Below are positions 20,812-42,595 of a DNA stretch of 64,000 nucleotides, piece after piece; positions within the stretch are counted from its first letter, which is position 1; every line of letters begins with the position of its first letter. The stretch lies in the NCBI GenBank assembly GCA_944386225.1, contig CALXAH010000016.1, forward strand, positions 1 through 64,000. Reading direction: 5' to 3'. Below the pieces are notes generated by a model. It made no database searches and was not told the DNA's origin. It worked only from the letters and a program-made list of their open reading frames with translations. The DNA is from an uncultured Gemmiger sp. GTDB taxonomy: Bacteria > Bacillota > Clostridia > Oscillospirales > Ruminococcaceae. Made by a program: the position numbers and the translations under genes.

Positions 20812-22269
20812 ATGAAAGCATCGATAGCAGGATGGCGCTTGTTGCTGCTTTCTTTCTGCATCGTTTTTTGTGTGGTGATATATGCGGGCTGCGCTCAAAA
20901 GGCGGATTCCGACACACAACAGAAGGACGAAATCACTCTGCGCGTTCTTACGGTAGGATCTTCCAGCGAGGAAGCCTGCGAGCGAATCAGTCGGGCCCTC
21001 AGTGAAATTACAATGCAGCGTTTGGGCTTTTCGGTCGAGCTGATTCAGACGTCTATGATTGATTATGACGAAGAACTTTCACGTCTGCATATGTTGAACA
21101 ACAGCCCGGATCTGTTTTGCTATATGCAGCCTGAGGATCTGCTGAAATACGTGGAAGGCGGGTATGTCTATCCCCTGGATCAGATGCTGGAGAATTTTCC
21201 CTGGTTAACCGGTTACGTAACGGCTGAAACATGGACATGTGTCCGGATAGGAAGCAAAACCTATGCAGTGCCTGCCAACAACAGTATCAATTACTGCCAG
21301 GGGTTCGTTGCCCGTACCGATATTCTAGAGGAATTGGGGATAGATCCGGCCACAATCACGGATTGGGATAGCCTGCACAGCCTGCTCTTGCAGGTCAAAA
21401 CCACCTATCCTGATATGACACCGGTGGTGTCCCACTTTGGGCAGACACTCCAGACACTGGGGCAGGATCCGCTGGGAGACAATCTGGGAGTGCTGCTTGA
21501 TAATCGTGGCACCACAGTGGAAAATTTGTATGCCAGCAGCCAATATGCGGAAGTTTGTGCCCGGATGTATCAGTGGTACCAAGAGGGCTTAATCCAAAAG
21601 GATGCCGCCATGGGAGGCGACGCAGCTGCTCGTATGCTGTATTTGCATAATGGGTTTGGCTATTTTGTCAAGATGAACGAGGATAACCTGGTCAGTAATA
21701 TTAACTCTGCGGGAATTTCCTTGTCACCTATTGTGCTGGGGGATACGATTGCCAACAGTTCTTCGGTCAATTTAGGATGGTGTATCGCGTCCTCCTGTGA
21801 ATACAAACAGCAGGCCATGGAATTGCTGGAACTGATCTATACCGACCAGGAGACCGCCGATTTGTGCATCTATGGTCAGGAGGGCATAGACTATCTGCGA
21901 TTGGATCAAGACACTGTAACGAGCATTGATATCCAGCCGGAGGCAGCATGGAACACGGTTGCCTGGGGCTGGCCCAACCGGGATGTGGCCAGTGTGTGGC
22001 AACTCTCTGACGGCGAGTTGCCGGTTTTCCCTACTACTGGTGCCAGACGCTCGCCCGCCATGGGCTTTGTATTTGATTCAACCCCGGTGCAGGCGGCGGT
22101 GAATCGCTGCAAAACGATTACGCAAAAATATCATAATGCACTGATGAGTGGATATTTGGATCCTGATGAGGCGTTGCCGCGCTTTTTGCAGGAACTGGAA
22201 GAGGCAGGTATCCAGGATGTGATTGACGAAAAGCAGTCTCAGCTGGATATTTGGCTTAGTTCGCGCTGA
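20812..22269 (+). CDS. Extracellular solute-binding lipoprotein
   Basis: The 485-residue protein has a lipoprotein signal with lipobox YAGC (C27) and the layout of family 1 sugar-binding proteins (ITLRVLTVGSSSEEACERIS..., long alpha/beta body). It would be anchored to the outer face of the membrane. The matching MalF/MalG-type permeases and ATPase are not beside it. The only ABC importer in the locus has its own, different binding protein. It may therefore serve as a sensor subunit for the YesM-type kinase 60 nt upstream, or use permeases encoded elsewhere. AAAGGAG precedes the ATG. Confidence 0.85.
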   Translation: MKASIAGWRLLLLSFCIVFCVVIYAGCAQKADSDTQQKDEITLRVLTVGSSSEEACERISRALSEITMQRLGFSVELIQTSMIDYDEELSRLHMLNNSPDLFCYMQPEDLLKYVEGGYVYPLDQMLENFPWLTGYVTAETWTCVRIGSKTYAVPANNSINYCQGFVARTDILEELGIDPATITDWDSLHSLLLQVKTTYPDMTPVVSHFGQTLQTLGQDPLGDNLGVLLDNRGTTVENLYASSQYAEVCARMYQWYQEGLIQKDAAMGGDAAARMLYLHNGFGYFVKMNEDNLVSNINSAGISLSPIVLGDTIANSSSVNLGWCIASSCEYKQQAMELLELIYTDQETADLCIYGQEGIDYLRLDQDTVTSIDIQPEAAWNTVAWGWPNRDVASVWQLSDGELPVFPTTGARRSPAMGFVFDSTPVQAAVNRCKTITQKYHNALMSGYLDPDEALPRFLQELEEAGIQDVIDEKQSQLDIWLSSR

Positions 22270-22361
22270 TAGCGCATCGTCTCCGTTCCCGGCAGTCGCG
22301 GCACCCGGTATAGTTTGCTGTAGAGGCCGTCTTCTTGCGGCCGGGAAAGGAGAAATATGCC

Positions 22362-23777
22362 ATGAAACACCCTGCAGTCAATCCGTATCTCCCCCTGGAC
22401 GAATATGTGCCCGATGGGGAACCCCGCCTGTTTGGGAACCGTGTATATCTCTATGGTTCTCACGATACCGCAGGCGGGAATTTTTTTTGCCTGGAAGACT
22501 ATGTGGCCTGGTCTGCGCCGGAAGATGATCTGTCTGACTGGCGGTATGAAGGGGTAATTTACCGCAAGGATCAGGACCCTTCAAATCCGGACGGAAAACT
22601 GGAGCTGTTTGCTCCCGATGTGGTCCGGGGAACAGATGGACGTTACTATCTTTATTATTGTCTGCGGCTGCGCCCGGAGTTCGGTGTGGCGGTGAGCGAT
22701 TCACCCGCCGGACCCTTCCGGTTCTATGGACACATTACCCGTCCCGATGGTTCGATACTGGATGATTTTATGCCGTACGACCCCTCGGTCCTGGTGGATA
22801 CGGATGGCAAAGTGTATCTGTACTATGGCTTTTCCAGTCAGATGCTCGCAGATAAATTCGGGGTGGAAAAAAGTCCGGGCTGCATGATGGTGCAGCTGGC
22901 ACCGGACATGCTTACTGCCATTACAGAGCCGGTTCAGTGTATACCCGGCGAGGAATTGGCAATGGGCAGCTCCTTTGCGGGCCATGCGTATGTGGAAGCG
23001 CCTTCTATGCGCCGGTTCGGTGACCGGTATTACCTGGTTTATTCCAGCCAGAATTGGCACGAACTCTGCTATGCGGTCAGCGACCGGCCCGACGGTGGCT
23101 TTATCTATGGTGGAATCTTAGTAGACAATGCAGATCTGGGGTTGAATGGCAATGCCCATCCGGTCCGGCAGCCGGGCAATAACCATGGTGGCCTGGTGGA
23201 GGCAGCGGGGCGACTGTACATGTTTTACCATCGTCACACCCAGGCGAATTCCTACTCCCGTCAGGGATGTGCCGAGGCTATTGCTTTTCGGGCAGACGGC
23301 ACATTGCCGCAAGTGGAGGTTACCTCGTGCGGGCTGAATGATGGGCCGTTGCCAGCCCAGGGCGAATGGCCTGCCGCTATTGCCTGCTGCCTGCATGGTT
23401 CTGATCCGGATGTATTGCTGGATTTTCGCAGTTTAAAACCGGGCAGCGTACCCTATATCACCGAGACCGGTACCGGTGGGCCGGCTCCGGAACAGTTCAT
23501 CGCCAATCTGTTGGATGGATCCGTAGCAGGATATAAGTATTTTAAGGCAGAGGACGTGCGACAGGTAACAGTCTGGGTGCGCAGTACCCGGCCGGGTGAG
23601 GTGAGTCTGCACCTGGATGCGCCGGACAGCCCTGCACTGGGGCGCGCTGCATTACCCGCCGGTGATACCTGGACGCCGGTCACCATACCGGCATCTTTCG
23701 GCGGTACCCATGCCTTGTATTTCCTCTTTGCGGGTCAGGGCATAGCAGAGTTTTCCCGCTTTGCATTCAATGTGTAA
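22362..23777 (+). CDS. GH43-family glycosidase with C-terminal CBM6-like region
   Basis: The 471-residue protein has the five-bladed propeller signatures of GH43: DEYVPDGEPRLFGNRVYLYG near the start (general base Asp in the PDGE segment), MPYDPSVLVDTDGKVYLYYG (pKa-tuning Asp), and YVEAPSMRRFGDRYYLVYSS (acid Glu). Residues from about 340 resemble a beta-sandwich carbohydrate-binding module. There is no signal peptide, so it acts on imported oligosaccharides. GH43 enzymes usually remove arabinose, xylose or galactose. The exact linkage is not predictable here. Confidence 0.88.
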   Translation: MKHPAVNPYLPLDEYVPDGEPRLFGNRVYLYGSHDTAGGNFFCLEDYVAWSAPEDDLSDWRYEGVIYRKDQDPSNPDGKLELFAPDVVRGTDGRYYLYYCLRLRPEFGVAVSDSPAGPFRFYGHITRPDGSILDDFMPYDPSVLVDTDGKVYLYYGFSSQMLADKFGVEKSPGCMMVQLAPDMLTAITEPVQCIPGEELAMGSSFAGHAYVEAPSMRRFGDRYYLVYSSQNWHELCYAVSDRPDGGFIYGGILVDNADLGLNGNAHPVRQPGNNHGGLVEAAGRLYMFYHRHTQANSYSRQGCAEAIAFRADGTLPQVEVTSCGLNDGPLPAQGEWPAAIACCLHGSDPDVLLDFRSLKPGSVPYITETGTGGPAPEQFIANLLDGSVAGYKYFKAEDVRQVTVWVRSTRPGEVSLHLDAPDSPALGRAALPAGDTWTPVTIPASFGGTHALYFLFAGQGIAEFSRFAFNV

Positions 23778-23807
23778 AAGAAACAAAAGGAGAGGAAAGA
23801 AAAAGCC

Positions 23808-25325
23808 ATGAAGATCTTGTATGTGGATATTGATACACTGCGTCCCGACCATCTGGGATGTTACGGATACGGCCGCCCTACCAGTCCCAATATTGACCGG
23901 ATCGCCGGTGAGGGCGTGCGGTTTACCGACTACTATTGTTCCGATGCTCCCTGCCTTCCCAGTCGGGCAGCCCTTATGACGGGCCGGTTCGGCATTCATA
24001 CTGGCTGCATTGGCCATGGCGGCCGCAATGCAGAAATGTGCCAGGAGGGCCGGGAACGGGGCATGGCTGATTTCAATGGTCGCTATAATTTGCCTGCCGT
24101 TATGCGTCGGGCCGGAATGAAAACGGCCAGTATCAGCAGCTTCCCGGACCGGCATGGTGCCTGGTGGTTTAATGGTGGCTTTGACGAGTGCTATAACGTG
24201 GGAAAGCGGGGATTGGAACCGGCTCATGAGGTAATTCCCATCGCCCTGGACTGGCTGGAACGCAAGAAGAACGTGTCGGACTGGTTTCTGCATCTGCATG
24301 TATGGGATCCGCATATTCCTTATCGTACGCCCGGTGAATATGGTAAACCCTTTGCGGAGATGCCCTTGCCTGATCCCTGGATGACGCAGGAACTCCTGGA
24401 GAAGCACCGCAAGACAAAGCCGGGCGGCCACAGTGCGTGTGAGGTTACCGGTTATGACAGTACCCCGAATCCGGCAACACCCCGACAGATTACGGAGATC
24501 CGGGACGTGCAAGACTTTCGCGCCATGATCGACGAATATGATACAGGTATCTGGTATGCCGACCAACAGCTTGGCCTTGTTTTTGACAAGCTGCGGGAAC
24601 AGGGAATCTATGACGATATGGCAATCATTATAAGCTCTGACCACGGTGAGGATCTGGGTGAAATGGGAAGCTACTGTGAGCATGGAGAGGCCGACTACAT
24701 CACTACCCATATTCCACTGATTGTCAAGTGGCCCGGCTGTGCCAGGGGAGCGGTTTCCGGCGGTTTCCACTATAATGTGGATCTGCTGCCCACGCTGGTG
24801 GATCTGCTGGGCGGTGTGCCTCCTTTCCAGTGCAACCGGGTAGTAGGAAAGCCCAATCCGGTTAAGTACGACGGTGAAAGTTTTGCCCATGAAGTGCGCA
24901 CCGGTGCTGACGGCGGTCGGGATTATCTGGTTGTCAGCCAGTGTGCCCATGTTTGTCAGCGCAGTGTTCGGTTCGGAGACTGGATTTACATCCGAACCTA
25001 TCATGACGGATACCATCTTACCGATGCGGAGGAACTCTTTAATGTGAAAGAGGATCCCCATGAGACACGGGATGTGGCCCATGAGCATCCGGAACTTTGC
25101 TGGAAGGGGGCTTGGTATCTGGAACACTGGGTTGCTGACGCTATGCTCGGCAACATCAGACACAGCAATGCGGATCCTCTTTGGAATGTGATTGCGGAGG
25201 GAGGCCCTTTCCATTGCCGCGGATACCTTAAAACCTATTGCGAGCGGCTGGAGGCTACAGGCCGGGCAGATTGTGCTGAGGAACTGCGTCGGCGTCATCC
25301 CGATGAATTAGCGGAGTCCTATTAA
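23808..25325 (+). CDS. Type I sulfatase (Cys-type), no signal peptide
   Basis: The 505-residue enzyme has the formylglycine motif CLPSRAALMTGR (C49), metal ligands in the first strand (VDIDTLRPDH) and the C-terminal metal pair SSDHGED. Cys-type sulfatases need maturation by a radical-SAM anSME in anaerobes; none is in the window. The protein starts directly at the first beta strand, so it is cytoplasmic. It lies 30 nt after the GH43 gene and 15 nt before a second sulfatase. The tail (about 440-505) includes motifs unlike the other sulfatases here, so a different linkage specificity is likely. Confidence 0.92.
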   Translation: MKILYVDIDTLRPDHLGCYGYGRPTSPNIDRIAGEGVRFTDYYCSDAPCLPSRAALMTGRFGIHTGCIGHGGRNAEMCQEGRERGMADFNGRYNLPAVMRRAGMKTASISSFPDRHGAWWFNGGFDECYNVGKRGLEPAHEVIPIALDWLERKKNVSDWFLHLHVWDPHIPYRTPGEYGKPFAEMPLPDPWMTQELLEKHRKTKPGGHSACEVTGYDSTPNPATPRQITEIRDVQDFRAMIDEYDTGIWYADQQLGLVFDKLREQGIYDDMAIIISSDHGEDLGEMGSYCEHGEADYITTHIPLIVKWPGCARGAVSGGFHYNVDLLPTLVDLLGGVPPFQCNRVVGKPNPVKYDGESFAHEVRTGADGGRDYLVVSQCAHVCQRSVRFGDWIYIRTYHDGYHLTDAEELFNVKEDPHETRDVAHEHPELCWKGAWYLEHWVADAMLGNIRHSNADPLWNVIAEGGPFHCRGYLKTYCERLEATGRADCAEELRRRHPDELAESY

Positions 25326-25340
25326 CAGGAGGAGAACACC

Positions 25341-26945
25341 ATGACGAAACGGCCACACATCATCCTGTTCAATCCGGATGAGATGCGTGCCTCGGCTTTG
25401 GGCCATCTGGGCAATCCGGCGGCCATTACGCCTTATTTGGATGCTTTCACTGGCGAAGCGGTATCCTTTCGCTATGCATATTGCCAAAATCCGGTATGTG
25501 TACCCAGCCGATGCAGCTTTTTTACAGGTTTATATCCCCATGTGCATGGACATCGAACCATGAGCTATTTGTTGCGTCCGGGTGAAACCACCCTGTTTCA
25601 AGAATTGCGGGCCGCTGGCTATTATGTATGGATGAACGATCGCAATGACTTGACTGCTGGTCAGATCCCCGGTTGGACGGAGAGCCATGCGGATGAGATA
25701 TACTATGGAGGCCAGAAAAAGCAGGGACCCGGCCCGGAAAATCCCGGCTTAAGAGGCACCCGGGGCGATAAGCAATTTTATTCCCATTTTGAAGGGCGGC
25801 TTGGTCTGGATGAGACAGGAGCGAACTACAATGGGGATGATGAAGTGGTGGATGCGGCTATCAAACGGATCCGTACCCGCCCGAAAGAGCAGCCGCTTTG
25901 TCTGTTCCTTGGCCTTACCTGGCCCCATGCGCCCTATCGGGCGGAGGAGCCATACTACTCCGCGGTGGACCGCAGTAAATTACCGCCCCGTATCCGGGCG
26001 GCGGACTGCACCGGAAAAGCTAAGATCCTTGCAGAAATCCGTAAATATGCAGGTATGGAAAGCTATACGGAAACGGACTGGGATGAACTGCGCGCTGTCT
26101 ATCAGGGCATGTGCATGAAAATTGATGAACAATTTGGCCGTTTAATGACCGCACTTAAAGAAGAAGGCATATACGACGATTGCGCCATCTTCTTCTTCAG
26201 CGATCACGGCGACTTTGCCGGCGATTATGATCTGCCGGAAAAATGTCAGAATAGTTTTGAAGATTGTCTGACACGGGTGCCGCTGCTGATCAAACCGCCC
26301 AAGGAAATGGCTTTAGATCCTGGAATCAGTGACAGCTTGGCTGAATTGGTGGATTTGTATGCCACCGCGCTGGAATTTGCAGGGGCTTCTTCCTCACATA
26401 CCCATTTTGGCCGCAGTCTGACACCGGTGCTGACCGACAGAAAGACGCGGGTGCGTGAGTATGCTTTTTGTGAAGGAGGCCGCCAACCGGGCGAGACGCA
26501 CTGTGATGAGTATCATCAGTGCGGTCCCCACGGCGCACCCCCTGCTACGCCCTATTGGCCAAAGATGATGGCACAGACGGACGATGAGGCACACGCCAAG
26601 GGCATTATGATACGCGATGAACGGTATAAATATGTAAGCCGTACCCTGGGCCAGGATGAATTGTATGATATGGCATTGGATCCCAATGAGACAACGAATC
26701 GGATTGCCGACCCATCACTGTCCCCGGTAGTTGCCCGGATGCAGTATGTGATGCTGAAATGGTTGCAGGCCACCGATGACATTGTTCCCTTTGAGCAGGA
26801 TCAGAGATTCACACCCGAAATGTTATGGGCACGTGTAAGGGGACTGGTACCTTCCGATAAGGAGCCGCAAGTGCGTGAGATGATCGGCCAGGGAACACCC
26901 TTCCCTGTGCTGATGAATTTCTGCCGTTCCTTGTCAGAAAAATGA
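25341..26945 (+). CDS. Type I sulfatase (Cys-type), no signal peptide
   Basis: The 534-residue sulfatase has the motif CVPSRCSFFTGLYP (C53), N-terminal metal strand ILFNPDEMRAS and C-terminal pair FFSDHGDFAGDYDL. The family's first Asp-Asp pair is reduced to a single acidic pair in NPDE, as in several cytoplasmic sulfatases. The start codon follows ACAGGAGGAG. It is followed by a terminator, so the first transcription unit of the glycan locus ends here. Confidence 0.92.
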   Translation: MTKRPHIILFNPDEMRASALGHLGNPAAITPYLDAFTGEAVSFRYAYCQNPVCVPSRCSFFTGLYPHVHGHRTMSYLLRPGETTLFQELRAAGYYVWMNDRNDLTAGQIPGWTESHADEIYYGGQKKQGPGPENPGLRGTRGDKQFYSHFEGRLGLDETGANYNGDDEVVDAAIKRIRTRPKEQPLCLFLGLTWPHAPYRAEEPYYSAVDRSKLPPRIRAADCTGKAKILAEIRKYAGMESYTETDWDELRAVYQGMCMKIDEQFGRLMTALKEEGIYDDCAIFFFSDHGDFAGDYDLPEKCQNSFEDCLTRVPLLIKPPKEMALDPGISDSLAELVDLYATALEFAGASSSHTHFGRSLTPVLTDRKTRVREYAFCEGGRQPGETHCDEYHQCGPHGAPPATPYWPKMMAQTDDEAHAKGIMIRDERYKYVSRTLGQDELYDMALDPNETTNRIADPSLSPVVARMQYVMLKWLQATDDIVPFEQDQRFTPEMLWARVRGLVPSDKEPQVREMIGQGTPFPVLMNFCRSLSEK

Positions 26946-26953
26946 TGTCCGTT

Positions 26954-27022
26954 CCATAAAGATAGACCCGCTGGTGGAATTACGTTCTGCTGGCGGGTTA
27001 ATCTTTATGGGTTTTGTTTTTT
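26954..27022 (+). terminator. Terminator between the first glycan unit and the ABC operon
   Basis: CCATAAAGAT (26954-26963) followed by the ACCCGC region pairs with GCTGGCGGGTTA and ATCTTTATGG (ending 27010). A T-rich tail GTTTTGTTTTTT follows. The stem is long, with a few mismatches. Confidence 0.8.
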
Positions 27023-27070
27023 AGGGTGCCGCCTGCGTAAGTCATAATATCTACAACGATGGTCGGATTA

Positions 27071-27120
27071 TCGATATTGCATTGTCGATATTTTGCAGAT
27101 GGTCGCAAATTTGATACTAT
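27071..27120 (+). promoter_or_regulatory. Promoter of the sugar ABC operon with tandem activator site
   Basis: TCGATATT occurs at 27071-27078 and again at 27085-27092, a 14-nt repeat period, immediately upstream of a weak -35 TTGCAG (27093-27098). A 16-nt spacer leads to TACTAT (27115-27120). Tandem direct repeats abutting a poor -35 are typical of AraC-family activator sites. The locus's YesN-type regulator is the obvious candidate. Confidence 0.6.
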
Positions 27121-27229
27121 CCTTTCGGAAAAATGAAAGAATTCGGATCGGATACATTCTATACTAATGCTGTAAGAAGCCCTGGAGGAATGTGAGCGGG
27201 GCCACTACAGAGAAGGAGGCATGTTTCCG

Positions 27230-28735
27230 ATGCCGGAAAAAGGTAAGGTCTTGGTCCAAGTCAAGGATGTGTGCAAAAACTTTGGCGTGACCATTGCGTT
27301 GTCCCATGTGGATTTCGTGGTCAAGACCGGCGAAATTCGCGGACTGATCGGTGAGAACGGTTCGGGCAAATCCACGGTTTCCTCGATTATCGCCGGAATG
27401 CAGCCGGCCAGCAGCGGCGAAATGGCCTATAAGGGCAAACCCTGGAAGCCAAAAGATGTATTGGAAGCACAGGCTGCCGGCATTGGCATGATTGTGCAAG
27501 AGGCCGGTACTATCGCGAATATCTCGGTGGCAGAAAATATTTTTCTGGGAAGCTATCAGAAATTTCGCAAGGGGCCCATTATTGACAAAAAAGCGATGGT
27601 GACCGAGGCCCGTAAAGCCCTGGAAAAGATCGGGGTCACCCACATAAACCCGGCATTGCCCGCCCGGATGTACGACATGCAGGAGCGCAAGCTGATCGAA
27701 ATCGCAAAATGCATGTATAACAATCCGGAACTTCTGATTGTGGATGAGACGACTACCGCCTTGAGCCAGAGTGGCCGCGACATCATCTACCGGATCATGC
27801 ATGAGATGGCGGATGCCGGTAAAGCGGTAATGATTATCAGCCACGACCTGAACGAAATGATGGAGCAGTGCGATACCCTTACAGTTCTGCGTGACGGCGT
27901 CATTATCGACAACATCGACAAAGCGGACTTTGATCCGGATGATATTAAGCAAAAGATGGTGGGCCGCGAGATTAAAGGCAACTACTACCGGGTGGACAAT
28001 GACGGTTATAGCGATGAGGTGGTATTGAAAGCGGATTGTATCACTACCATGCACAGCCTGCTTTGCTTTGATCTGGAACTGCACAAGCAGGAGATTCTGG
28101 GCATCGGAGGCCTGTCCGATTGCGGGATGCATACGGTTGGACGGGCACTCTATGGGCTGGAAATGGTAGTGGACGGTGAAGTCCGGATTTCTGACCGCAA
28201 CGTGGTGGTTAAGAACGCACAGGTAGCTTTTCGCAACGGTATGGGCTATGTGTCCAAGAACCGGGATACGGAAAGCCTCGAGTTAAATGCTTCCATTTAC
28301 AACAATATCGCTTCCACCGGCTATGATAAGAACAGCACAGGCCCTTTCATCAACCCCTTCAAGGAGCGAGCCTATGTGGACAAGCAGGTTCGTGCTCTGA
28401 TGATTAAGTGCCAGAATGCTCACCAGCCGGTGCGTGCGCTGTCCGGCGGCAACAAACAGAAGGTGGTATTCGGCAAATGGTGTGCAGATGATGCGGACAT
28501 CCTGATTCTGGATTGTCCCACCCGCGGTGTGGACATCGGTGTCAAGGCCGCCATGTACCAGCTGATCTACGATATGAAAAAGCAGGGCAAGTCCATCATT
28601 ATGATCAGCGAGGAACTTCCGGAACTGATGGGCATGTGCGACCGTCTGCTGATCATGAGGGATGGACAGATATCCGGCGAGTTCTTCCGCAAAGACGGAT
28701 ACGACGATCGCACCCTTATCGAGTATATGATTTGA
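27230..28735 (+). CDS. Sugar ABC transporter ATP-binding protein (RbsA/MglA type, two domains)
   Basis: The 501-residue protein has two ABC domains. Domain 1 has Walker A GENGSGKSTV and Walker B LLIVDETTT. Domain 2 has the usual degenerate P-loop (GGLSDCGMHTVG) but an intact signature LSGGNKQKVV and Walker B ILILDCPTRG. This arrangement is that of CUT2-family importers for ribose, galactose and related sugars. The second ATG (27230) was taken as start: GGAGG is 10 nt before it but only 1 nt before the upstream ATG at 27221. The signature of domain 1 is not obvious in the usual place (MYDMQERKLIEIAK), a common feature of CUT2 ATPases. Confidence 0.9.
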   Translation: MPEKGKVLVQVKDVCKNFGVTIALSHVDFVVKTGEIRGLIGENGSGKSTVSSIIAGMQPASSGEMAYKGKPWKPKDVLEAQAAGIGMIVQEAGTIANISVAENIFLGSYQKFRKGPIIDKKAMVTEARKALEKIGVTHINPALPARMYDMQERKLIEIAKCMYNNPELLIVDETTTALSQSGRDIIYRIMHEMADAGKAVMIISHDLNEMMEQCDTLTVLRDGVIIDNIDKADFDPDDIKQKMVGREIKGNYYRVDNDGYSDEVVLKADCITTMHSLLCFDLELHKQEILGIGGLSDCGMHTVGRALYGLEMVVDGEVRISDRNVVVKNAQVAFRNGMGYVSKNRDTESLELNASIYNNIASTGYDKNSTGPFINPFKERAYVDKQVRALMIKCQNAHQPVRALSGGNKQKVVFGKWCADDADILILDCPTRGVDIGVKAAMYQLIYDMKKQGKSIIMISEELPELMGMCDRLLIMRDGQISGEFFRKDGYDDRTLIEYMI

Positions 28736-28748
28736 AGGAGGGAAAAAA

Positions 28749-29765: not shown

Positions 29766-29831
29766 TCCGTATACGACGCGTCTGTGAGGCGCGGACCGAT
29801 TCTGACACAATAATAAAAAAGGAGAATCATC

Positions 29832-31103: not shown

Positions 31104-31166
31104 TTCCCGGGCAACGACTTGTTTGACAAGGGTGGGCGTCCCTGTCAGTAAAGGAGAGAAAGAGCA

Positions 31167-32219: not shown

Positions 32220-32292
32220 AGCAAGACATAGTCAGAAGCGGCGGCAAAGAGTGTTCTTTGCCGCCGCTTTTCTCAAGAGAAAGGAAAAAGCG

Positions 32293-33675: not shown

Positions 33676-33706
33676 CGCTGCCAGGCAGCAGAAAGGACGA
33701 TCAGCT

Positions 33707-35218
33707 ATGAAAGCCATCATGGTTATGTATGATTCTCTTCGGCGGGATCTTCTGTCCTGCAACGGCGGGCCGATCCCAACCCCGAATTTCGAGCGGCTGG
33801 CGGCACGTACGGTATGCTTTGACCGGTGCTATGTAGGAAGTCTCCCTTGCATGCCCGCCCGCCGCGAGCTGCATACCGGCCGCTACAATTTTTTGCACAG
33901 GGATTGGGGCCCCATTGAGCCTTTTGATGATTCCATGCCCCAGATTCTCAAACAGAATGGGGTGTATACCCACCTGACAACCGACCACTACCACTATGTG
34001 GAGGATGGCGGTGCCACCTACCACAGCCGCTATTCTTCCTGGGAATGCTACCGGGGTCAGGAGAGCGACACCTGGATCGCCGATCTGACCCCGCCGCCCG
34101 CCGAGTATTCGCCCCATCTGATTGGAACAAAAAATATGAACGGTACTTTGGCGGTTATGCGGCGCAGGGGCGGTTGGCAGAATGACCACAACCGGGAAAT
34201 GCTGCATACCAGCGCTGACTATCCCATGCACCATACTTTTGACAACGGGCTGGATTTCCTGGACAGGAACGCGGCCTATGATAACTGGTTTTTGCAGATA
34301 GAAACGTTTGATCCCCACGAGCCTTTTACCGTGCCCGGAGAATTTGAGAGCAACTGGTTTAGTCCGGATAACCCCTTTGTGCCGGATTGGCCTCCCTACG
34401 CCAAGGTGGATGAGGATGCGGAAACAGTGGAGGGAATGCGGAAAAAATACTTCGCCCTTACCCAGTTCTGCGACCAGCAGTTGGGTCGGGTGCTGGATAA
34501 GATGGATCAGCTGGATCTCTGGAAGGATACCATGCTTATCGTAAACACCGACCACGGCTTTTTCCTGGCGGAGCACGATTGGTGGGGCAAAGGTGCGGCG
34601 CCCAACTATGAAGAACTGGTACATACGCCGCTCTTTATTTGGGATCCCCGCAGTCCGGAAACAGCTGGCCAGCGTCGCCAGGCTCTGGTGCAGACTATTG
34701 ATCTGGCTCCCACGCTGTTGGATTTCTTTGGGATGCCGATACCGACGGATATGCAGGGAAAATCTTTGTCGGACACTATAGCCCGCGATGTTCCCGTGCG
34801 GAAATATGCCATTTTCGGTTATCATGGTGCGCCTGTGGGGGTCACCGATGGCCGCTGGGTACTGCTTCGGGCAGTGGCAGACAAGAGCACACCGGTGTAC
34901 GAGTATACCCATATGCCCACTCATATGCGGGCACTTTTCTCGGTAGAAGAGATGCGTACTGCTACTATGGCCCCTGCTTTCTCTTTCACCAAGGGAGCAC
35001 CGGTTATGAAGATCGAATCCAAACCGAACCCTCGTTTTGTCAATGCGCTGGAAGAAGGAGAGGACCTGCTGTTTGATCTTCAGAACGATCCGGCCCAGCT
35101 GTGCCCGCTGGATAATGCTGCGGAAAAGCAAAGGCTTTTGAATGCACTGGCAGTCCTGCTGCAGGACAGTGACGCGCCGGCAGAAGCTTACGATCGTTAC
35201 GGCTTGGCCCGTCCCTGA
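33707..35218 (+). CDS. Type I sulfatase (Cys-type, CxPAR form), no signal peptide
   Basis: The 503-residue sulfatase has the modification motif LPCMPARRELHTGR (C48), N-terminal strand IMVMYDSLRRDLL and C-terminal pair TDHGFFLAEHDWWGKG. The first strand has YDSLRRD, keeping an Asp and the activating Arg. The MYDSLRRD...HDWWGKG type is a distinct subgroup among bacterial sulfatases. It lies 31 nt after the preceding sulfatase and 15 nt before a 53-codon gene. Confidence 0.92.
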   Translation: MKAIMVMYDSLRRDLLSCNGGPIPTPNFERLAARTVCFDRCYVGSLPCMPARRELHTGRYNFLHRDWGPIEPFDDSMPQILKQNGVYTHLTTDHYHYVEDGGATYHSRYSSWECYRGQESDTWIADLTPPPAEYSPHLIGTKNMNGTLAVMRRRGGWQNDHNREMLHTSADYPMHHTFDNGLDFLDRNAAYDNWFLQIETFDPHEPFTVPGEFESNWFSPDNPFVPDWPPYAKVDEDAETVEGMRKKYFALTQFCDQQLGRVLDKMDQLDLWKDTMLIVNTDHGFFLAEHDWWGKGAAPNYEELVHTPLFIWDPRSPETAGQRRQALVQTIDLAPTLLDFFGMPIPTDMQGKSLSDTIARDVPVRKYAIFGYHGAPVGVTDGRWVLLRAVADKSTPVYEYTHMPTHMRALFSVEEMRTATMAPAFSFTKGAPVMKIESKPNPRFVNALEEGEDLLFDLQNDPAQLCPLDNAAEKQRLLNALAVLLQDSDAPAEAYDRYGLARP

Positions 35219-35233
35219 AGCGGAGGAAACCAT

Positions 35234-35395: not shown

Positions 35396-35433
35396 TATGC
35401 TGTGAAAAGAAACAAAGAAAAGAGGAGTTCCCT

Positions 35434-37131
35434 ATGATCGATCTGAAGGCCAGACCGTTTTACCTGGATGATGAGGCTATCGCCTGGGTGCAGGATACCC
35501 TGGCGGGTATGACGGTGGAAGAAAAGGCCGGGCAGCTGTTTTGTGTGCTCTTTAAGGAGGCTAAACCCGAAGAATTCGACTATGTGTACAGCATCCTGTC
35601 CCCCGGAGGCTGTATGTATCGGGTGGTGCCCAGTGCGCGGGCTGTAGAGGCGTCTCAGACACTGCAAGCCCGCAGCAAGATTCCCCTGTTGATTGCCGCC
35701 AACCTGGAAAAAGGCGGGAACGGCATTGTGGAAGAGGGGACTCTGGTTGGATCTCCCATGGAAATTGCCGCCACTGATGACCCGGAAATGGCGGCCCGTA
35801 TGGCCGAAGCCTGTGCCAAGGAAGCCCGGGCGGTGGGAGCCAACTGGGCCTTTGCCCCTATTATCGATATTGATACCAATTTCCGTAATCCTATTACCAA
35901 TACCCGTACATTTGGCAGCGATCCGGATCGGGTGCGTCGGATGGGAGAAGCATATGTGAAAAAGGTGCAAAGCCTGGGTCTGGCCGCTTCCATCAAGCAT
36001 TTCCCCGGAGACGGTCAGGATGAACGGGACCAGCATCTGGTTACTTCCATCAACAGTATGGACTGCGATACCTGGATGGCCACCTACGGTGCTGCCTATA
36101 AGGCAGGCATTGAGGCCGGGAGCCTTACCGTTATGGTGGGCCATATTATGCAGCCTGCCTGGAGCAAGCGGCTTGATCCAACCCTCAAGGATGAGGAAAT
36201 CATGCCGGGAACTCTGAGTGCGGAACTTATGCAGGGACTTCTGCGGGACAAACTGGGATTCAATGGCCTGATCTGCACCGACGCCACCACTATGGCTGGC
36301 TATACCCTGGCCATGAGCCGCCGCCGCGCCGTACCTGAAAGTATCGCCCGGGGCGCGGATATGTTCCTTTTCGCCCGAAATCTGGAAGAGGATTACGGCT
36401 TTATGCTGGAAGGAATTCGCCAGGGAATCATCACACCCCAGCGGCTGGACGAGGCGGTTACCCGTATTCTGGCCACCAAGGCTGCCCTGGGCCTGCACAA
36501 GGGCGTGCCGGCCATCAGCCAGGAGGCCGCTGCCCAGGTGGTGGGCTGTGCTGAGCACCAAAGCTGGGCGGAAGACTGCGCTGACCGGGCTATCACCTTG
36601 GTCAAGGAGCAGGCCGGTGTGCTGCCGCTTACCCCTGAGCGATACAAACGAATCCTGTTCTACACCATCGAACCGCCTGCCGGCGGCGAGGGAAACTACA
36701 AAGTTAAAGCGGCCTGTGCCAAGGTGCGGGAGATGCTGGAAGCCGAGGGCTTTCAGGTGGATGACTTTGTACCTCAGCCCTACGGAGAAGGCTTTACCAC
36801 CAAGTACGAAGACGTGGTGAATAACTACGACCTGATTCTTTATGTAGCGAACCTGTCTACCAAGAGCAATCAAACGGTAGTACGCATTGAGTGGAAACAA
36901 CCTATGGGAGCGGATTGCGGGCACTATATGAACGATGTCCCCACCATTTTTGTTTCCCTGGAAAATCCGTATCACTTGCTGGACTTTCCACGGGTTAAGA
37001 CGTACATCAACTGCTATAGCAACAACGACCATTGCCTTCGTCAATTGGTCGAAAAACTCACCGGCCGCAGTTCCTTCAAGGGGAAAAGCCCTGTAGATGC
37101 TTTCTGTGGTAAATGGGATGCCCGGCTGTGA
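35434..37131 (+). CDS. GH3-family glycosidase, NagZ-like
   Basis: The 565-residue cytoplasmic protein has the GH3 barrel: FAPIIDIDTNFRNPITNTR, SIKHFPGDGQDERDQH, and the nucleophile D283 in LICTDATTM. In NagZ-type beta-N-acetylhexosaminidases the catalytic loop reads KHFPGHG...DxH. Here the second His is Asp but DQH is retained. A second alpha/beta domain follows (about 380-565). It has no signal peptide. In this locus it probably removes a beta-linked N-acetylhexosamine from a desulfated oligosaccharide, which hints at a mucin- or GAG-type substrate. Other GH3 activities cannot be excluded. Confidence 0.88.
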   Translation: MIDLKARPFYLDDEAIAWVQDTLAGMTVEEKAGQLFCVLFKEAKPEEFDYVYSILSPGGCMYRVVPSARAVEASQTLQARSKIPLLIAANLEKGGNGIVEEGTLVGSPMEIAATDDPEMAARMAEACAKEARAVGANWAFAPIIDIDTNFRNPITNTRTFGSDPDRVRRMGEAYVKKVQSLGLAASIKHFPGDGQDERDQHLVTSINSMDCDTWMATYGAAYKAGIEAGSLTVMVGHIMQPAWSKRLDPTLKDEEIMPGTLSAELMQGLLRDKLGFNGLICTDATTMAGYTLAMSRRRAVPESIARGADMFLFARNLEEDYGFMLEGIRQGIITPQRLDEAVTRILATKAALGLHKGVPAISQEAAAQVVGCAEHQSWAEDCADRAITLVKEQAGVLPLTPERYKRILFYTIEPPAGGEGNYKVKAACAKVREMLEAEGFQVDDFVPQPYGEGFTTKYEDVVNNYDLILYVANLSTKSNQTVVRIEWKQPMGADCGHYMNDVPTIFVSLENPYHLLDFPRVKTYINCYSNNDHCLRQLVEKLTGRSSFKGKSPVDAFCGKWDARL

Positions 37132-37149
37132 GCGGAAAGGAACTGGCCT

Positions 37150-38220
37150 ATGTCACAGAACGTATGTTTGGCGGCCCTGCGCTGGCGTCAGGATGGGATT
37201 GATCACGTGGTGAAGCTGCTGCCCGGCGGCCGGATCGGTGTACTGAGTGACGAGATCCTGGCCGAGGCTGCCGCTTCGGGAGGCAAACCGGGGGAAAAGA
37301 TTGCTGCTATTCGTGCCGGGGATATAGCCAGGGTTCGGGCAATCCAGCGGGACGAAGGCCCGGAAGGAAAAGAGATCGCCACAGCGCCTCTCTGCCAGTG
37401 GGAAGAAAGCTTGCCCGGCCCGGGCGGCCCTGTGCCGGTTACCTTCTGCCGGCCCGGCTCTCCGGCAGTCCGGCCTTGCCTGGTGTATTTTCACGGCGGC
37501 GGCTGGATGTATGGAAGCCGGGCGATGGTGCAGCCCTTTTGCCGTTATCTGGCTCAGGAGGCCGATGCACTGGTGGTAAATGTGGAGTACCGATTGGCGC
37601 CGGAACACCGATGGCCCGCTGGTTTTGAAGATTGTTGGGCAGTCCTGTGCTGGGTCTATTCCCAGGCAGAGCGCCTGGGGGTGGATCCGGCCAGGATCAC
37701 CGTGGGTGGTGACAGCGCCGGCGGCAATATGGCCGCCCTCTGTGCTCATCGGGACCGGGACCAGGGCAGGCACATGATCCGTCGGCAGATTCTCTATTAC
37801 GCTGCCCTCAGCGTACGGGATGTGGAAGGACTGTCCGGCTTCCACTTCGGTCTGGAGGACTATATCTATGATGACAGTCAAAAAACCATGATTGAGCCCC
37901 GGATACTGGCTATTTATAATGCGAGCCGCCGCAGCGAACAAAACTACCTGCCAAGGAATGTGTCCAGTCGGGATCCCCGGGTCTCTCCTCTGTGGGATAC
38001 GGATTTTTCCTGCCTGCCTGAGACGCTGCTTATCACGGCACAGTACGATTATCTGACACAGCAGTCCCGTGCTTATGCAGGGCGCCTGGCTGCAGCGGGA
38101 GTGCCGGTAACATTGATGAACTACTGTGGTATGGCGCATGCCTTTGTGGACAAGTGCGGCGTATACCCTCAGGCGGATGATTCGCTGCGGGAGGTCGCGG
38201 CTTTTCTGCGAAAAGAATAG
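37150..38220 (+). CDS. Alpha/beta hydrolase, HSL-family esterase
   Basis: The 356-residue protein has the HSL signatures: oxyanion motif YFHGGGWMYGS, nucleophile elbow GDSAGGNMA, Asp in ITAQYDYL and His in GMAHAF. The N-terminal 85 residues are an extra cap. No signal peptide is present. Located between a GH3 gene and two sulfatase genes, it most likely removes acetyl or other acyl groups from imported sugars. It ends in TAG, one of few TAG stops in the window. Confidence 0.88.
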   Translation: MSQNVCLAALRWRQDGIDHVVKLLPGGRIGVLSDEILAEAAASGGKPGEKIAAIRAGDIARVRAIQRDEGPEGKEIATAPLCQWEESLPGPGGPVPVTFCRPGSPAVRPCLVYFHGGGWMYGSRAMVQPFCRYLAQEADALVVNVEYRLAPEHRWPAGFEDCWAVLCWVYSQAERLGVDPARITVGGDSAGGNMAALCAHRDRDQGRHMIRRQILYYAALSVRDVEGLSGFHFGLEDYIYDDSQKTMIEPRILAIYNASRRSEQNYLPRNVSSRDPRVSPLWDTDFSCLPETLLITAQYDYLTQQSRAYAGRLAAAGVPVTLMNYCGMAHAFVDKCGVYPQADDSLREVAAFLRKE

Positions 38221-38245
38221 GGAATATAAAAAGGAGGCGACATCC

Positions 38246-39760
38246 GTGCAACCGGATATTCTGCTGTTTATGAGCGACCAACACGCCCCGCAGTATATGG
38301 GGGGAGGCGAGATCCCGGTTGATACCCCCCATCTGGATGCACTGCGCCGGGAAGGTGTGGAATTTTCCCAGGCATATACCGCCTGCCCGCTTTGTGTTCC
38401 TGCCCGTATGGCCATGCTATGTGGAATGCGCCCTTCCCGAACGGGCATTTTCACTAATGTGGATGCTCTGCCGGATACCTTGCCCACGTTTTTGCATTAT
38501 CTGGTAGCTGAGGGGTATGAGACGGTATTGGTTGGCCGGATGCATTTTGTCGGTCTGGATCAGCGTCATGGATTCACAAAACGCATAGCGCCGGACTTTA
38601 CCAACAGCGGTTGGGCACGTCCGCCTTGGCTGGTGGACGATTTTGGCGTCCATACACAAACAATGGGGTATAAATGGTGTACGCATGTGGTAGGCGGTGG
38701 CCGGTCGCCGGTACAAATCTACGATGAGATGGTGGTTTCGGCTGCACAGGATTATCTGTCCCAGCCTCATGAGAAACCGCAGTTCATCCTGGTAGGTACT
38801 TACGGGCCGCATTTCCCTTATGTAGCGCCGGAGGAACTGTTTAAAAAGTACATTGCCCGGGCGGAACCGCCTCAGACGCTGGCGGGAGAAGAAAAATTTA
38901 TGAATCCGATCTTGCGGATGCTTCAGGAACCTTCCCGAACACCGGAACTGGCAGCAGCCTGTCAGGCTGCATACCGGGGCATGGTGGAAAAACTGGATGG
39001 CCAGTTGGGAGAAATACGCAAAGCGTTCCAGGCCTTTACCGCCGCCCGGGGAACTCCCGGATTATTTGGCTATCTGTCCGACCATGGGGATACAATCGGG
39101 GAGCATGGTATATTCGGAAAAAAGACATTTTTTGAAAAATCGGTTCGCATTCCGCTGATCTTTGCAGGGGATGGGGTTGCTGCCGGAAAGCGTTGGAACG
39201 ATCCGGTAAGCCTTCTGGATCTGGGGCCTACAATCTGCGCTTGGGCTGCAGCCGACACGCCGGAACGGGCGGACGGTATCAGTCTGAAAGAAATTTTACA
39301 TACCGGTACAGGAACAGGCGGCCGGACTGTATTCAGTGAAGGAATGGACAAAGCGCCGGACGGCCATTGGGTGCACAGTATTATGGTTAGACAGGGGCGG
39401 TACAAATACATTTCCTACCATGGTTATGAAAACCAGGACATGCTTTTTGAACCGGAAAAGGATCCGAAGGAACAAAACAATCTGGCAGCTGTTCTGCCTG
39501 CTGCTTGTGCAGGACTTCGCGCCCAGGCATACCGCTGGGCAGATCCGGCAAAGGCGGAGCGCATGCAGAAAGAACACGCCGAACGGGCAGCATGTATGGC
39601 AGCTTTTGAAAAGGCATGCGGGTATGATGACCGTGAACGTTTCCGGAACTACCCGGAGGAAGCAAAAAACGATCCGGCAATTTGTGTAACGCGGTTGACC
39701 AGTGTGCCGGGACCAAAGCAAACCAGCGAATTTCTGGGCTTGTCCGCTGCGGCGAAGTGA
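38246..39760 (+). CDS. Type I sulfatase (Cys-type), tandem copy 1
   Basis: The 504-residue sulfatase starts at GTG 38246 with AAGGAGG 8 nt upstream, giving (M)QPDILLFMSDQHAPQYMGG. The modification motif is CPLCVPARMAMLCG (C50) and the C-terminal metal pair SDHGDTIGEHG. It is strongly similar to the next gene over its whole length (for example the segments GTYGPHFPYVAP and KRIAPD occur in both), so they are tandem duplicates. No signal peptide is present. The upstream in-frame codons overlap the esterase gene and look non-coding. Confidence 0.92.
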   Translation: MQPDILLFMSDQHAPQYMGGGEIPVDTPHLDALRREGVEFSQAYTACPLCVPARMAMLCGMRPSRTGIFTNVDALPDTLPTFLHYLVAEGYETVLVGRMHFVGLDQRHGFTKRIAPDFTNSGWARPPWLVDDFGVHTQTMGYKWCTHVVGGGRSPVQIYDEMVVSAAQDYLSQPHEKPQFILVGTYGPHFPYVAPEELFKKYIARAEPPQTLAGEEKFMNPILRMLQEPSRTPELAAACQAAYRGMVEKLDGQLGEIRKAFQAFTAARGTPGLFGYLSDHGDTIGEHGIFGKKTFFEKSVRIPLIFAGDGVAAGKRWNDPVSLLDLGPTICAWAAADTPERADGISLKEILHTGTGTGGRTVFSEGMDKAPDGHWVHSIMVRQGRYKYISYHGYENQDMLFEPEKDPKEQNNLAAVLPAACAGLRAQAYRWADPAKAERMQKEHAERAACMAAFEKACGYDDRERFRNYPEEAKNDPAICVTRLTSVPGPKQTSEFLGLSAAAK

Positions 39761-39774
39761 GAGGAAGTGGAAAA

Positions 39775-41229
39775 ATGAAACAGCCGGATATTCTGGTGTT
39801 TATGAGCGACCAGCACGCACCGCAGTTTATGGGGGGCGGTGAGATCGCGGTGGATACTCCGCATCTGGATGCCCTGCGCAGGGATGGTGTGGAGTTTACC
39901 CAAGCGTATACGCCGTGCCCGCTCTGCGTCCCGGCCCGGATGGCTATGCTGTCAGGGTTGCGAAGCGCACGTACGGGGATATTCACAAATGTAGATACCC
40001 TGCCGAATGTTACCCCTACGTTTGTGCACCATTTGGCCGCATCAGGATATGAGACGGTGCTGGCGGGGCGAATGCACTTTATCGGGCAGGATCAGAGGCA
40101 CGGGTTTACTAAAAGGATCGCTCCGGATATAACACTGGTAACCTGGACCCGCCCCGAACATATTAAACAGGAACGCGGCGTTTTTGCGCGTACATTTGCC
40201 GGAAAGTGGGCACCACAGGTGGTGGGAGGTGGTGAATCGCCGGTTCTCATTTACGATGAACTGGTGATACAGGCAGTGCTGGATTACCTGGCGCAGCCTC
40301 ATGAAAAGCCGCAATTTATTTTAGTGGGAACGTATGGGCCTCATTTTCCCTATGTGGCGCCGCCGGAACTCTTCCGTAAATATTGGGATCGAGTGGAAGT
40401 GCCGGCGCTCCGGGAGGACAAAGCGGGGGAACTGAACGCTTTCCTTCAGGCCCGCCGCGTGCAAGCCAGCGAAGAGGTGGCGCGAGGCGTACGGGCCGCT
40501 TATTGCGGTATGATAGAGCGGATGGATGAGCAGATCGGAAAGGTGAGAGCTGCGTTTCAGAATTTCACCGCCGGCAGAGGTACAACCAGCCTGTTCGGGT
40601 ATGTATCCGACCACGGCGATCAGGCCGGTGAACGGGATCTGTATGGGAAAGAGACTTTCTTTGAAAAGTCTGCACGGATTCCGCTGATCTTTGCAGGGGA
40701 CGGTATTCCGGCGGGACGCAAGGAAAATGCCCCGGTCAGCCTTTTGGATCTGGGGCCGACTATTTGCGACTGGGTGGGTGCATCGGTGCCGGAAGATACA
40801 GATGGTCAAAGCCTGACCGATGTGCTGCGGGGCGGTTCGACGGACTGCGACCGGATGGTGAGCAGCGAATTTATGGAAAAAGACGATGCTGGATACCATT
40901 ATGCACTGATGCTGCGCCGTGGTGCCTATAAGTTTGTGACCTATCGGGGATGTGAGAATCAGGACGGGCTGTTTATGCCGGAAGCTGATCCGCTGGAGCA
41001 GAATAACCTGGCGGCGGTGCAGCCGGAACTGCTGGCTGCGTTCCGCGCCGCAGCAGCAGAGTTTACGCCGGATGCAAAAGCCTTGGAAGTCGCGCAGGCG
41101 CGCCAGGCAAGGGATGCTGCATTGTTTATCGCCTGGGAAAAAGCGACGGGCTTGAATGAGAGCGAACGCTGGAAGGATAATCCGCCCAGCGCTCGTGTGA
41201 ATCCGGAAATCTGTATTGCCGGACTGTGA
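39775..41229 (+). CDS. Type I sulfatase (Cys-type), tandem copy 2
   Basis: The 484-residue paralogue of the preceding gene has MKQPDILVFMSDQHAPQFMG, CPLCVPARMAMLSG (C51) and SDHGDQAGERDLYGKE. The family His after the metal pair (EHG in copy 1) is replaced by ERD, which may alter metal or substrate binding. The gap between the two copies is 14 nt. It has no signal peptide. Diverged copies suggest two sulfate positions on the same sugar. Confidence 0.92.
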   Translation: MKQPDILVFMSDQHAPQFMGGGEIAVDTPHLDALRRDGVEFTQAYTPCPLCVPARMAMLSGLRSARTGIFTNVDTLPNVTPTFVHHLAASGYETVLAGRMHFIGQDQRHGFTKRIAPDITLVTWTRPEHIKQERGVFARTFAGKWAPQVVGGGESPVLIYDELVIQAVLDYLAQPHEKPQFILVGTYGPHFPYVAPPELFRKYWDRVEVPALREDKAGELNAFLQARRVQASEEVARGVRAAYCGMIERMDEQIGKVRAAFQNFTAGRGTTSLFGYVSDHGDQAGERDLYGKETFFEKSARIPLIFAGDGIPAGRKENAPVSLLDLGPTICDWVGASVPEDTDGQSLTDVLRGGSTDCDRMVSSEFMEKDDAGYHYALMLRRGAYKFVTYRGCENQDGLFMPEADPLEQNNLAAVQPELLAAFRAAAAEFTPDAKALEVAQARQARDAALFIAWEKATGLNESERWKDNPPSARVNPEICIAGL

Positions 41230-41243
41230 AGAGGAGGAGTTTT

Positions 41244-41897
41244 ATGAGTCAATATAAAGGCCTGCTTTTTGATCTGGACGGGGTTATTGTGGATACGGCC
41301 AAATATCATTTCCTTGCGTGGAAAGCACTGGCTGATGAGTTGAAAATTCCGTTTAATGAGCAAGATAACGAACGGCTGAAAGGGGTCAGCCGGATGGCCA
41401 GCTTCGAGATTATCTTGGAACTGGGACATCGGACTATGACCACCGAAGAAAAGCAGCGCAACTGTGACAGAAAGAATGCCTTGTACGTTTCTTATATTCA
41501 GAAACTTACCCGGAATGATATTTTGCCCGGCGTGGAAAGTTTCCTTACCCGGGCGAGAAAAGCCGGCTATAAAATCGCGTTGGGCTCGGCCAGCAAAAAT
41601 TCCCCTTTGATCCTGGAACGCCTGGGCATTACTGACCTGTTTGATGCAGTTGTAGATGGAACGAAGGTAAGCAAAGCCAAACCCGATCCGGAAGTGTTTT
41701 TGGCAGGGGCGGCTGAACTTGGGGTAAACCCGGCACAATGTGTAGTTTTTGAAGATGCGGCTGCCGGGGTGCAGGCCGCGCACCTGGCCGGAATGAAAGC
41801 TGTGGGAATTGGTGATCCGGCTGTTTTGCGTCAGTCTGACGTGGTGTTGCCCGGATTCGGCGGTATGGATCCAGGGGAATTGCTGGCACGGCTGTGA
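41244..41897 (+). CDS. pgmB: HAD phosphatase/mutase, beta-phosphoglucomutase-like
   Basis: The 217-residue HAD protein has motif I FDLDGVIVD (D10, D12), the beta-PGM cap signature FHFLAWKALADE-like region and LKGVSR, and motif II/III regions LGSASKN and VFEDAAAGVQAA. Beta-phosphoglucomutase converts beta-glucose 1-phosphate to glucose 6-phosphate. In this locus it implies phosphorolysis of some product, or a related sugar-phosphate phosphatase role. GAGGAGG precedes the ATG. It follows the last sulfatase by 14 nt. Confidence 0.85.
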   Translation: MSQYKGLLFDLDGVIVDTAKYHFLAWKALADELKIPFNEQDNERLKGVSRMASFEIILELGHRTMTTEEKQRNCDRKNALYVSYIQKLTRNDILPGVESFLTRARKAGYKIALGSASKNSPLILERLGITDLFDAVVDGTKVSKAKPDPEVFLAGAAELGVNPAQCVVFEDAAAGVQAAHLAGMKAVGIGDPAVLRQSDVVLPGFGGMDPGELLARL

Positions 41898-41905
41898 GGT
41901 GTGGT

Positions 41906-42595
41906 ATGCCCATTGGTTATATTACGGACTGCTTCCTTGTGCTTCTGGGAGGATTGGCGGGTACAGCTTTGGGCGTCCGTCTGCCCTCGCGTATTCAGAA
42001 AAATCTCACTGTGCTGCTGGGCTTTTGCTCTGCTGCCATAGGGATTACTTCTATCACCAAAGCGGTCAATATGACGCCTGTAGTGGTGTCGGTCATCCTG
42101 GGAACCCTGCTGGGGGAAATGCTGGATCTGGAGAAACGCATTACTGCACTTTTCAGCAAACTGTTGCGTCGTACCTTCTGTAAAGGAATTGCCGTTGATA
42201 TGGAACGCTTCATTACCGTTGTGGTTCTTTTCTGCGCCAGCGGATTTGGAATCTATGGCGTTCTGATGGAAGGAATGAGCGGAGATGCCTCTGTTTTGCT
42301 GTCAAAGTCGGTCCTGGATTTTTGTACCGCTGCCGTATTTGCTGTAACATTGGGGATATCGGTGGTTCTTGTGGTTGCTCCCATGGCGATCGTGCTGGGG
42401 GGACTTCTGCTGTTTGCGGGATTGCTGGCACCGTATGTTACCCCGATCATGCTGCAGGATTTTATGGCGTGCGGCGGTATTCTCACCCTGGCTGCCGGGC
42501 TGCGGGTCAGTGGGATTAAGAACTATCCTTTAGCCAATATGATTCCGGCACTGGCCCTGATACTTCCTGGTTCAGCCTTGTGGATGATGCTGTAA
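41906..42595 (+). CDS. DUF554-family membrane protein
   Basis: The 229-residue polytopic protein starts MPIGYITDCFLVLLGGLAGTALG and contains the family's repeated helix pairs (ILGTLLGEMLDLEKRI, and the C-terminal LRVSGIKNYPLANMIPAL). DUF554 (YdfK/YqgA) has no firmly assigned function; a transport role is assumed. It begins 8 nt after the beta-PGM gene and ends the glycan locus before a terminator. Confidence 0.9.
   Translation: MPIGYITDCFLVLLGGLAGTALGVRLPSRIQKNLTVLLGFCSAAIGITSITKAVNMTPVVVSVILGTLLGEMLDLEKRITALFSKLLRRTFCKGIAVDMERFITVVVLFCASGFGIYGVLMEGMSGDASVLLSKSVLDFCTAAVFAVTLGISVVLVVAPMAIVLGGLLLFAGLLAPYVTPIMLQDFMACGGILTLAAGLRVSGIKNYPLANMIPALALILPGSALWMML

Follow-up and report, generated by a model that had tools for sequence, protein, structure and literature searches.

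How could a Gram-positive bacterium make use of a sulfated nutrient if none of the sulfatases involved appears to leave the cell? The question is raised by a gene cluster in the window, a stretch of 64,000 nucleotides from an uncultured Gemmiger sp. (GenBank assembly GCA_944386225.1, contig CALXAH010000016.1, positions 1 to 64,000). A run of genes, all on the + strand, extends from a histidine kinase at 17427 to a DUF554 gene ending at 42595, with sulfatases, an importer and glycosidases in between. With confidence that is about evenly balanced, this locus is taken to be an operon by which a Gram-positive cell uses a small beta-glucoside that carries one or more sulfate esters and probably an acyl group. 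Gene content, protein families, enzyme N-termini that do not look like signals and the conservation of the importer with sulfatases are observed; from these we infer the substrate, the order of the steps and all activities.

With degrading enzymes, a transport system and a regulator in one place, the locus fits the wording for Gram-positive polysaccharide utilisation loci in an excerpt of PMC9067506. A sequence-only reading of the same DNA had placed its limits at 20812-42595; the gene run is real, but the histidine kinase (17427-19184) and the response regulator (19099-20745) had been left out. The kinase is probably the first gene of the transcription unit, which would place the start about 3.4 kb ahead of the earlier one, since a 343-base gap separates the kinase from a D-lyxose-isomerase-like gene and holds a 20-pair inverted repeat (17121-17168) with a terminator-like score on the - strand. 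The true start of the response regulator probably lies within its overlap with the open reading frame of the kinase. In the list below, counts refer to 14 related loci, which are described further on and carry L numbers.

17427..19184, +: sensor histidine kinase, YesM-like (HAMP, His_kinase, HATPase_c; Pfam); homologue in 10 of 14 loci
19099..20745, +: response regulator, YesN-like (receiver and AraC helix-turn-helix; Pfam); homologue in 11 of 14, one clipped by the locus edge
20812..22269, +: SBP1, lipoprotein-like solute-binding protein (SBP_bac_1 and DUF3502; Pfam, N-terminus); homologue in 1 of 14 (L021), also in L035
22335..23777, +: GH43 glycosidase without a signal-like N-terminus (Pfam); homologue in 1 of 14 (L021)
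23808..25325, +: sulfatase S1 (CLPSR; Pfam PF00884); homologues in L021 and L023 of the 14
25341..26945, +: sulfatase S2 (CVPSR), core (PF00884, 12-row alignment); 12 of 14, one partial
27221..28735, +: ABC ATPase with two ABC domains, RbsA/XylG-like (Pfam; best NCBIfam score 378.6 bits, cut-off 699)
28749..29765, +: permease 1 (BPD_transp_2; Pfam)
29832..31103, +: SBP2, lipoprotein-like solute-binding protein with a predicted sugar-binding-protein fold, without Pfam or NCBIfam match
31167..32219, +: permease 2 (BPD_transp_2; Pfam), query of the scan for related loci
32251..33675, +: sulfatase S3 (CTPSR; GKSDLH in motif II; PF00884, sequence)
33707..35218, +: sulfatase S4 (CMPAR), core (PF00884, 15-row alignment); 13 of 14
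35434..37131, +: GH3, beta-glucoside phosphorylase-like (BglX type), with the D-x-H dyad conserved (sequence match to BglX)
37150..38220, +: alpha/beta-hydrolase esterase (Abhydrolase_3; Pfam)
38126..39760, +: sulfatase S5 (CVPAR; PF00884); the start as listed overlaps the esterase, true start uncertain
39682..41229, +: sulfatase S6 (CVPAR; PF00884), true start probably after 39682
41226..41897, +: beta-phosphoglucomutase (HAD; TIGR01990)
41894..42595, +: DUF554 membrane protein (Pfam), overlapping the stop codon of the mutase

Importer, sulfatases and their cellular location

All six sulfatases of the locus, two of which (S5 and S6) are 59% identical, score above the curated cut-off of PF00884 and carry the Cys-type maturation motif CxPxR. 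The whole genome (3.38 Mb) has 16 PF00884 matches, six of them inside 17.4 kb, and this clustering is no chance effect. CxPxR is found in 13 of the 16 (six in the locus and seven elsewhere); the other three lack it and have several transmembrane-like stretches. Another contig of the genome encodes an anaerobic sulfatase maturase (anSME; TIGR03942, 372.2 bits, cut-off 349.45). Choline sulfatase (TIGR03417) was considered as an assignment and rejected, as the best score in the locus is 239.4 bits (S6) against a cut-off of 433.45.

The location of the enzymes was assessed by an 11-residue Kyte-Doolittle hydropathy scan, distinct from SignalP, with the reading extended to the upstream in-frame stop. 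The six sulfatases, GH43, GH3 and the esterase reach 0.58-1.23, while SBP1 and SBP2 reach 3.20 and 2.09 and have lipobox-like N-termini, in agreement with the sequence-only reading, according to which these nine enzymes lack signals and only the two binding proteins are exported. Between the listed starts and the in-frame stop, none of the nine enzymes has an upstream ATG, GTG or TTG. The margin is moderate, as values of 1.75 and 1.81 are reached by two further proteins, whose N-termini are Rossmann- or HAD-like. In related loci the separation is clearer, with S2 (12 sites) at 0.28-1.19, S4 (15 sites) at 0.93-1.66 and SBP2 (11 sites) at 1.94-2.55. Among the Cys-type sulfatases of the same genome outside the locus, six of seven are without a hydrophobic N-terminus; the seventh (L042), which may or may not belong with them, has a short hydrophobic stretch of 2.25, above SBP2, ahead of its likely true start, and the start of another (L049) is uncertain. 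As S2 and S4 of related loci also lack signal-like N-termini, it is likely that the sulfates are removed in the cytoplasm after ABC (ATP-binding cassette) import.

A double-domain ATPase, BPD_transp_2 permeases and the RbsB/GBP-like binding protein SBP2 give the importer the architecture of CUT2, the label for importers of the RbsABC, YtfQRT-YjfF and LsrABCD type. It resembles these in its ATPase, its permeases and the matching predicted fold of its binding protein and, like YtfT/YjfF and LsrC/LsrD, it pairs two different permeases. Unlike them, it scores below the curated cut-offs, its SBP2 has no Pfam match, and it is linked to sulfatases. As the importer is CUT2-like and the locus holds no secreted depolymerase, a small ligand is suggested. 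Of the earlier proposal that sulfated oligosaccharides are imported by the ABC system and desulfated inside, import and inside desulfation stand as likely, supported by a precedent discussed below (an excerpt of PMC5430744), but the word “oligosaccharides” does not. SBP2 is present in five of 396 genomes of the family (E<=1e-10, own genome included), in none of three genus mates and, at E<=1e-30, in one of 391 genomes of the class, which is the own genome, so that the locus looks accessory.

A predicted route to glucose 6-phosphate and its relatives

From residue 4 to 565, the GH3 protein aligns to BglX, a beta-glucoside phosphorylase (PDB 5VQD, E=1.2e-168, against 3.6e-43 for the next match), and the sequence KHFPGDG...RDQH with the His/Asp dyad is retained, so that GH3 domain, dyad and full-length likeness all place it with the BglX type. 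According to the review PMC8950772, GH3 enzymes of this type are retaining phosphorylases with a His/Asp dyad, which yield beta-sugar 1-phosphates. In contrast to BglX/BglP (5VQD/5VQE), which derives from a metagenomic clone, the GH3 studied here, predicted to be a phosphorylase, sits with sulfatases and a HAD protein that scores as beta-phosphoglucomutase (TIGR01990, 254.4 bits, cut-off 189.4). Together, these two enzymes would convert a beta-glucoside to glucose 6-phosphate.

In the proposed mechanism, the two-component system would sense the compound, which SBP2 would bind and the CUT2-type ABC importer would take in unchanged. In the cytoplasm, sulfatases matured by anSME would then strip off the sulfates, the conserved pair S2 and S4 being joined by S1, S3, S5 and S6 as putative extras for other positions or aglycones, and the esterase would take off acyl groups. 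Cleavage of the beta-glucosidic bond with phosphate by the GH3 phosphorylase would release beta-glucose 1-phosphate, and beta-phosphoglucomutase would pass this on to glycolysis as glucose 6-phosphate. In relatives, a kinase and a 6-phospho-beta-glucosidase would do the last part; the kinase route requires a free 6-OH and therefore presumably prior desulfation if O6 is sulfated.

These relatives were found by scanning contigs with an alignment of permease 2 (the sequence of the locus and a piece from G026, a genome of the same family), after which the presence of genes was determined by tblastn. The 14 related loci are those matching two short peptide patterns and come from 13 isolates or metagenome-assembled genomes (MAGs) as titled, with L022 and L024 sharing one. 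L021 (JAQUTM010000070.1, a MAG titled “Oscillospiraceae bacterium”) contains the 5-kb G026 query piece letter for letter and is thus the contig of a query row counted among the 14. The labels, mostly of MAGs, are Oscillospiraceae, Solobacterium, Erysipelotrichaceae, Anaerocolumna, Hungatella, Gemmiger, Faecalibacterium, Lachnospiraceae and Clostridium. As the permease was the query, sulfatases were not selected for, and S2 or S4 is linked to it in all 14 loci (S4 in 13, S2 in 12 with one partial, both in 11), along with the two-component homologues counted above; L021 and L024 end soon after these genes. SBP2 shares 34-42% identity with that of the studied locus in all but one of 12 rows, the exception being the L021 fragment at 64%, so that the linkage would either go back a long way or have been transferred as one unit. 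A real variant is L032 (2-4848), in which permeases 1 and 2 lie side by side with no SBP2 between them and are followed by S4; the 1.8 kb after S4 holds no S2 but has the start of a GH3 that runs off the contig. In L021 (6549-8377), the S2 match breaks off near residue 413, directly followed by the C-terminal half of SBP2; the ATPase and permease 1 are missing, whether by deletion or by a join made in assembly.

Around this core, the gene content varies: ROK kinase in 7 loci, PF00756 esterase in 5, YdjC/ChbG-type deacetylase in 4, GH1 and AEC transporter in 3 each, and TauE, anSME-like genes and GH3 of other types in 2 each (GH3 in L023 and L032). Family names rest on scanned representatives, namely one GH1 and two ROK proteins. 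The scanned GH1 scores as 6-phospho-beta-glucosidase (664.6 bits, cut-off 623), with the L025 GH1 only 43% identical to it, and both ROK proteins match the beta-glucoside kinase BglK best at 120.8 and 128.8 bits, below the cut-off of 550. A ROK kinase with GH1 could thus be a non-homologous route to glucose 6-phosphate, and ROK, GH1 and other GH3 proteins suggest other ends to the pathway. The anSME of L023 is above the cut-off and the anSME-like gene of L030 below it (329.8 vs 349.45); TauE occurs in L023, L025 and, beyond the 14, L069.

A further search within the 396 genomes used an S2 profile, which gave 17 matches in 16 genomes; five weaker matches were dropped and the 12 strong ones (E<=1e-240, 11 genomes) kept as family sites. 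GH3 lies within about 9 kb of S2 at five of these (the studied locus, L050 on contig C4 of the same genome, L069, L070 and L074) and S4 near S2 at four (the studied locus and L071-L073); the G026 site is on a short contig. The importers near S2 differ, with a CUT2-type permease in the studied locus and L070 and MFS_2 in L069 and, by homology, L050. As S2 is found near GH3 with differing importers, it would appear to be tied to sugar catabolism independently of one transporter.

Three of these sites have features of their own. The neighbours of S2 in L069 (2975-14701) and L074 (9078-17778) include GH3, a LarA-type protein, a class II aldolase and a TIM-family protein, which may together break down a sulfated sugar by a route of their own. 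A second S2-type sulfatase, 58% identical to S2, lies in L050 (2848-9967) between a PGI-family gene and GH3, whose match is spread over several reading frames, with an MFS_2-like transporter beyond.

Taken more widely, this leads to a tentative proposal, which is possible but held with less confidence than the assignment of the single locus: a patchily distributed, undescribed pathway of Bacillota for small sulfated, acylated beta-glucosides, in which a CUT2-type importer with S2 and S4 would be joined to interchangeable ends, phosphorylase and beta-phosphoglucomutase here, kinase and 6-phospho-beta-glucosidase or another GH3 elsewhere.

Substrate and rival explanations

Several observations weigh against a beta-glucoside operon, and some of them speak for a rival. 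By tblastn, neither the BglX-like GH3 nor beta-phosphoglucomutase occurs in any of the 14 related loci (the L021 contig ends early); among the loci compared, the two accompany these sulfatases in the studied stretch alone. L035 and L036, distant transporter relatives from the same family, count in favour with a BglX-like GH3 (40-42%) and an esterase but no sulfatase match, and against with no match to beta-phosphoglucomutase, and a third distant SBP2 relative (G009, L037) has neither this transporter set nor GH3. At three of the 12 S2 sites (L075-L077, one 2.9 kb from a contig end) there is no GH3, GH1 or S4 match. Finally, GH43, SBP1 and DUF554 are left without a role in the proposed pathway.

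The rival that survives best, although unlikely, holds that sulfated host-glycan fragments of the mucin or keratan type, mono- or disaccharides, are imported and desulfated inside, an idea found in part in the sequence-only reading. The YdjC/ChbG-type deacetylase in four loci, which falls short of the NCBIfam cut-off as a chitin disaccharide deacetylase, hints at N-acetylated sugars; the GlcNAc-6-sulfatase 5g2v is the second-best PDB sequence match of S4; three of the 14 record titles mention cattle or sheep intestine; and for BglP both beta-glucose 1-phosphate and beta-N-acetylglucosamine 1-phosphate are given in the excerpt of PMC8950772. Against this stand the pairing of GH3 with beta-phosphoglucomutase and its score of 96.6 bits as beta-N-acetylhexosaminidase (NF003740), far under the cut-off of 207. 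With the full-length BglX match, these leave the earlier suggestion that GH3 indicates an N-acetylhexosamine target unsupported, although GlcNAc may still be the sugar. The only GH1 scanned scores as a 6-phospho-beta-glucosidase and not as a galactosidase, and the 25 open reading frames scanned at 14295-47960, to which the search was confined, contain no fucosidase, sialidase, GH88 or polysaccharide lyase. The last two absences also tell against the glycosaminoglycan (GAG) fragment that had been named as a target.

Less probable still is that the substrates of S1, S2 and S4 are phosphodiesters, phosphonates or small sulfate esters other than those of sugars. Motif II of sulfatases usually has Gly-Lys and then His. 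No Gly-Lys is present in S1, S2 and S4, the position being occupied by an invariant R-N-D in S2 (12 rows) and D-H-x-H-Y in S4 (15 rows), and S3 (GKSDLH) and S5 and S6 (GRMH) also depart somewhat. For the conserved pair, a sulfatase function is thus putative and assigned by family. Close matches in the PDB include phosphonate monoester hydrolases, but the best match is a sulfatase in each case (6hhm for S1, 4upl for S2 and S4), TauE or anSME accompanies some loci, and glycosidases lie near S2. The least probable alternative is a composite locus, in which a CUT2, GH3 and kinase-regulator set for a non-sulfated beta-glucoside lies beside separate sulfatases for unrelated sulfate esters, as could be suggested by L035 (transporter, GH3, kinase and regulator, SBP1) and L036 (transporter, GH3), both free of sulfatase matches, and by S2 and S4 occurring in other surroundings too, but against which stands the linkage of S2 or S4 to the transporter in every related locus under several genus labels.

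Apart from the sulfatase locus, the window holds a separate upstream group (11628-17083) of a hydantoinase-like protein, an FAD oxidoreductase, a GDSL hydrolase and the Lyx_isomer protein (259.9 bits, under the NCBIfam cut-off of 350), and at 3518-6838 (+) a 1106-codon open reading frame without any Pfam match and overlain by long antisense frames, a candidate coding region.

Known systems and significance

In the case of Streptobacillus moniliformis, the excerpt of PMC5430744 describes ABC import of a sulfated GAG sugar, followed by a sulfatase predicted by PSORT-B to be cytoplasmic. The import-first strategy, likely here, is not new in principle. That cluster handles unsaturated GAG disaccharides with a lyase and GH88, whereas neither is among the proteins scanned here, where the importer is CUT2-like, the sulfatases number six and cleavage is probably by phosphorolysis. 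Bacteroides thetaiotaomicron likewise combines several formylglycine sulfatases with glycosidases, uptake and regulation, but with SusC/D-type uptake in place of ABC import; most S1-type sulfatases reviewed in PMC10154612 are periplasmic, some at the surface, and those of the studied locus have no signal-like N-termini.

No description of the importer-sulfatase core of Bacillota was found in the literature searched. Desulfation inside the cell by a conserved importer and sulfatase module would be a sign of a sulfated nutrient yet to be assigned, would offer two sulfatase groups with unusual active-site signatures and would explain how Gram-positive cells could keep the desulfated sugar private. 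If the pathway exists as proposed, sulfated plant glucosides from the diet could be among its substrates, and S2 and S4, with their catalytic pockets altered, would represent new specificities among sulfatases. The core recurs in distantly related bacteria, some from animal guts, and the gene set is small enough to bring the question of the substrate within reach of one binding protein and two enzymes.

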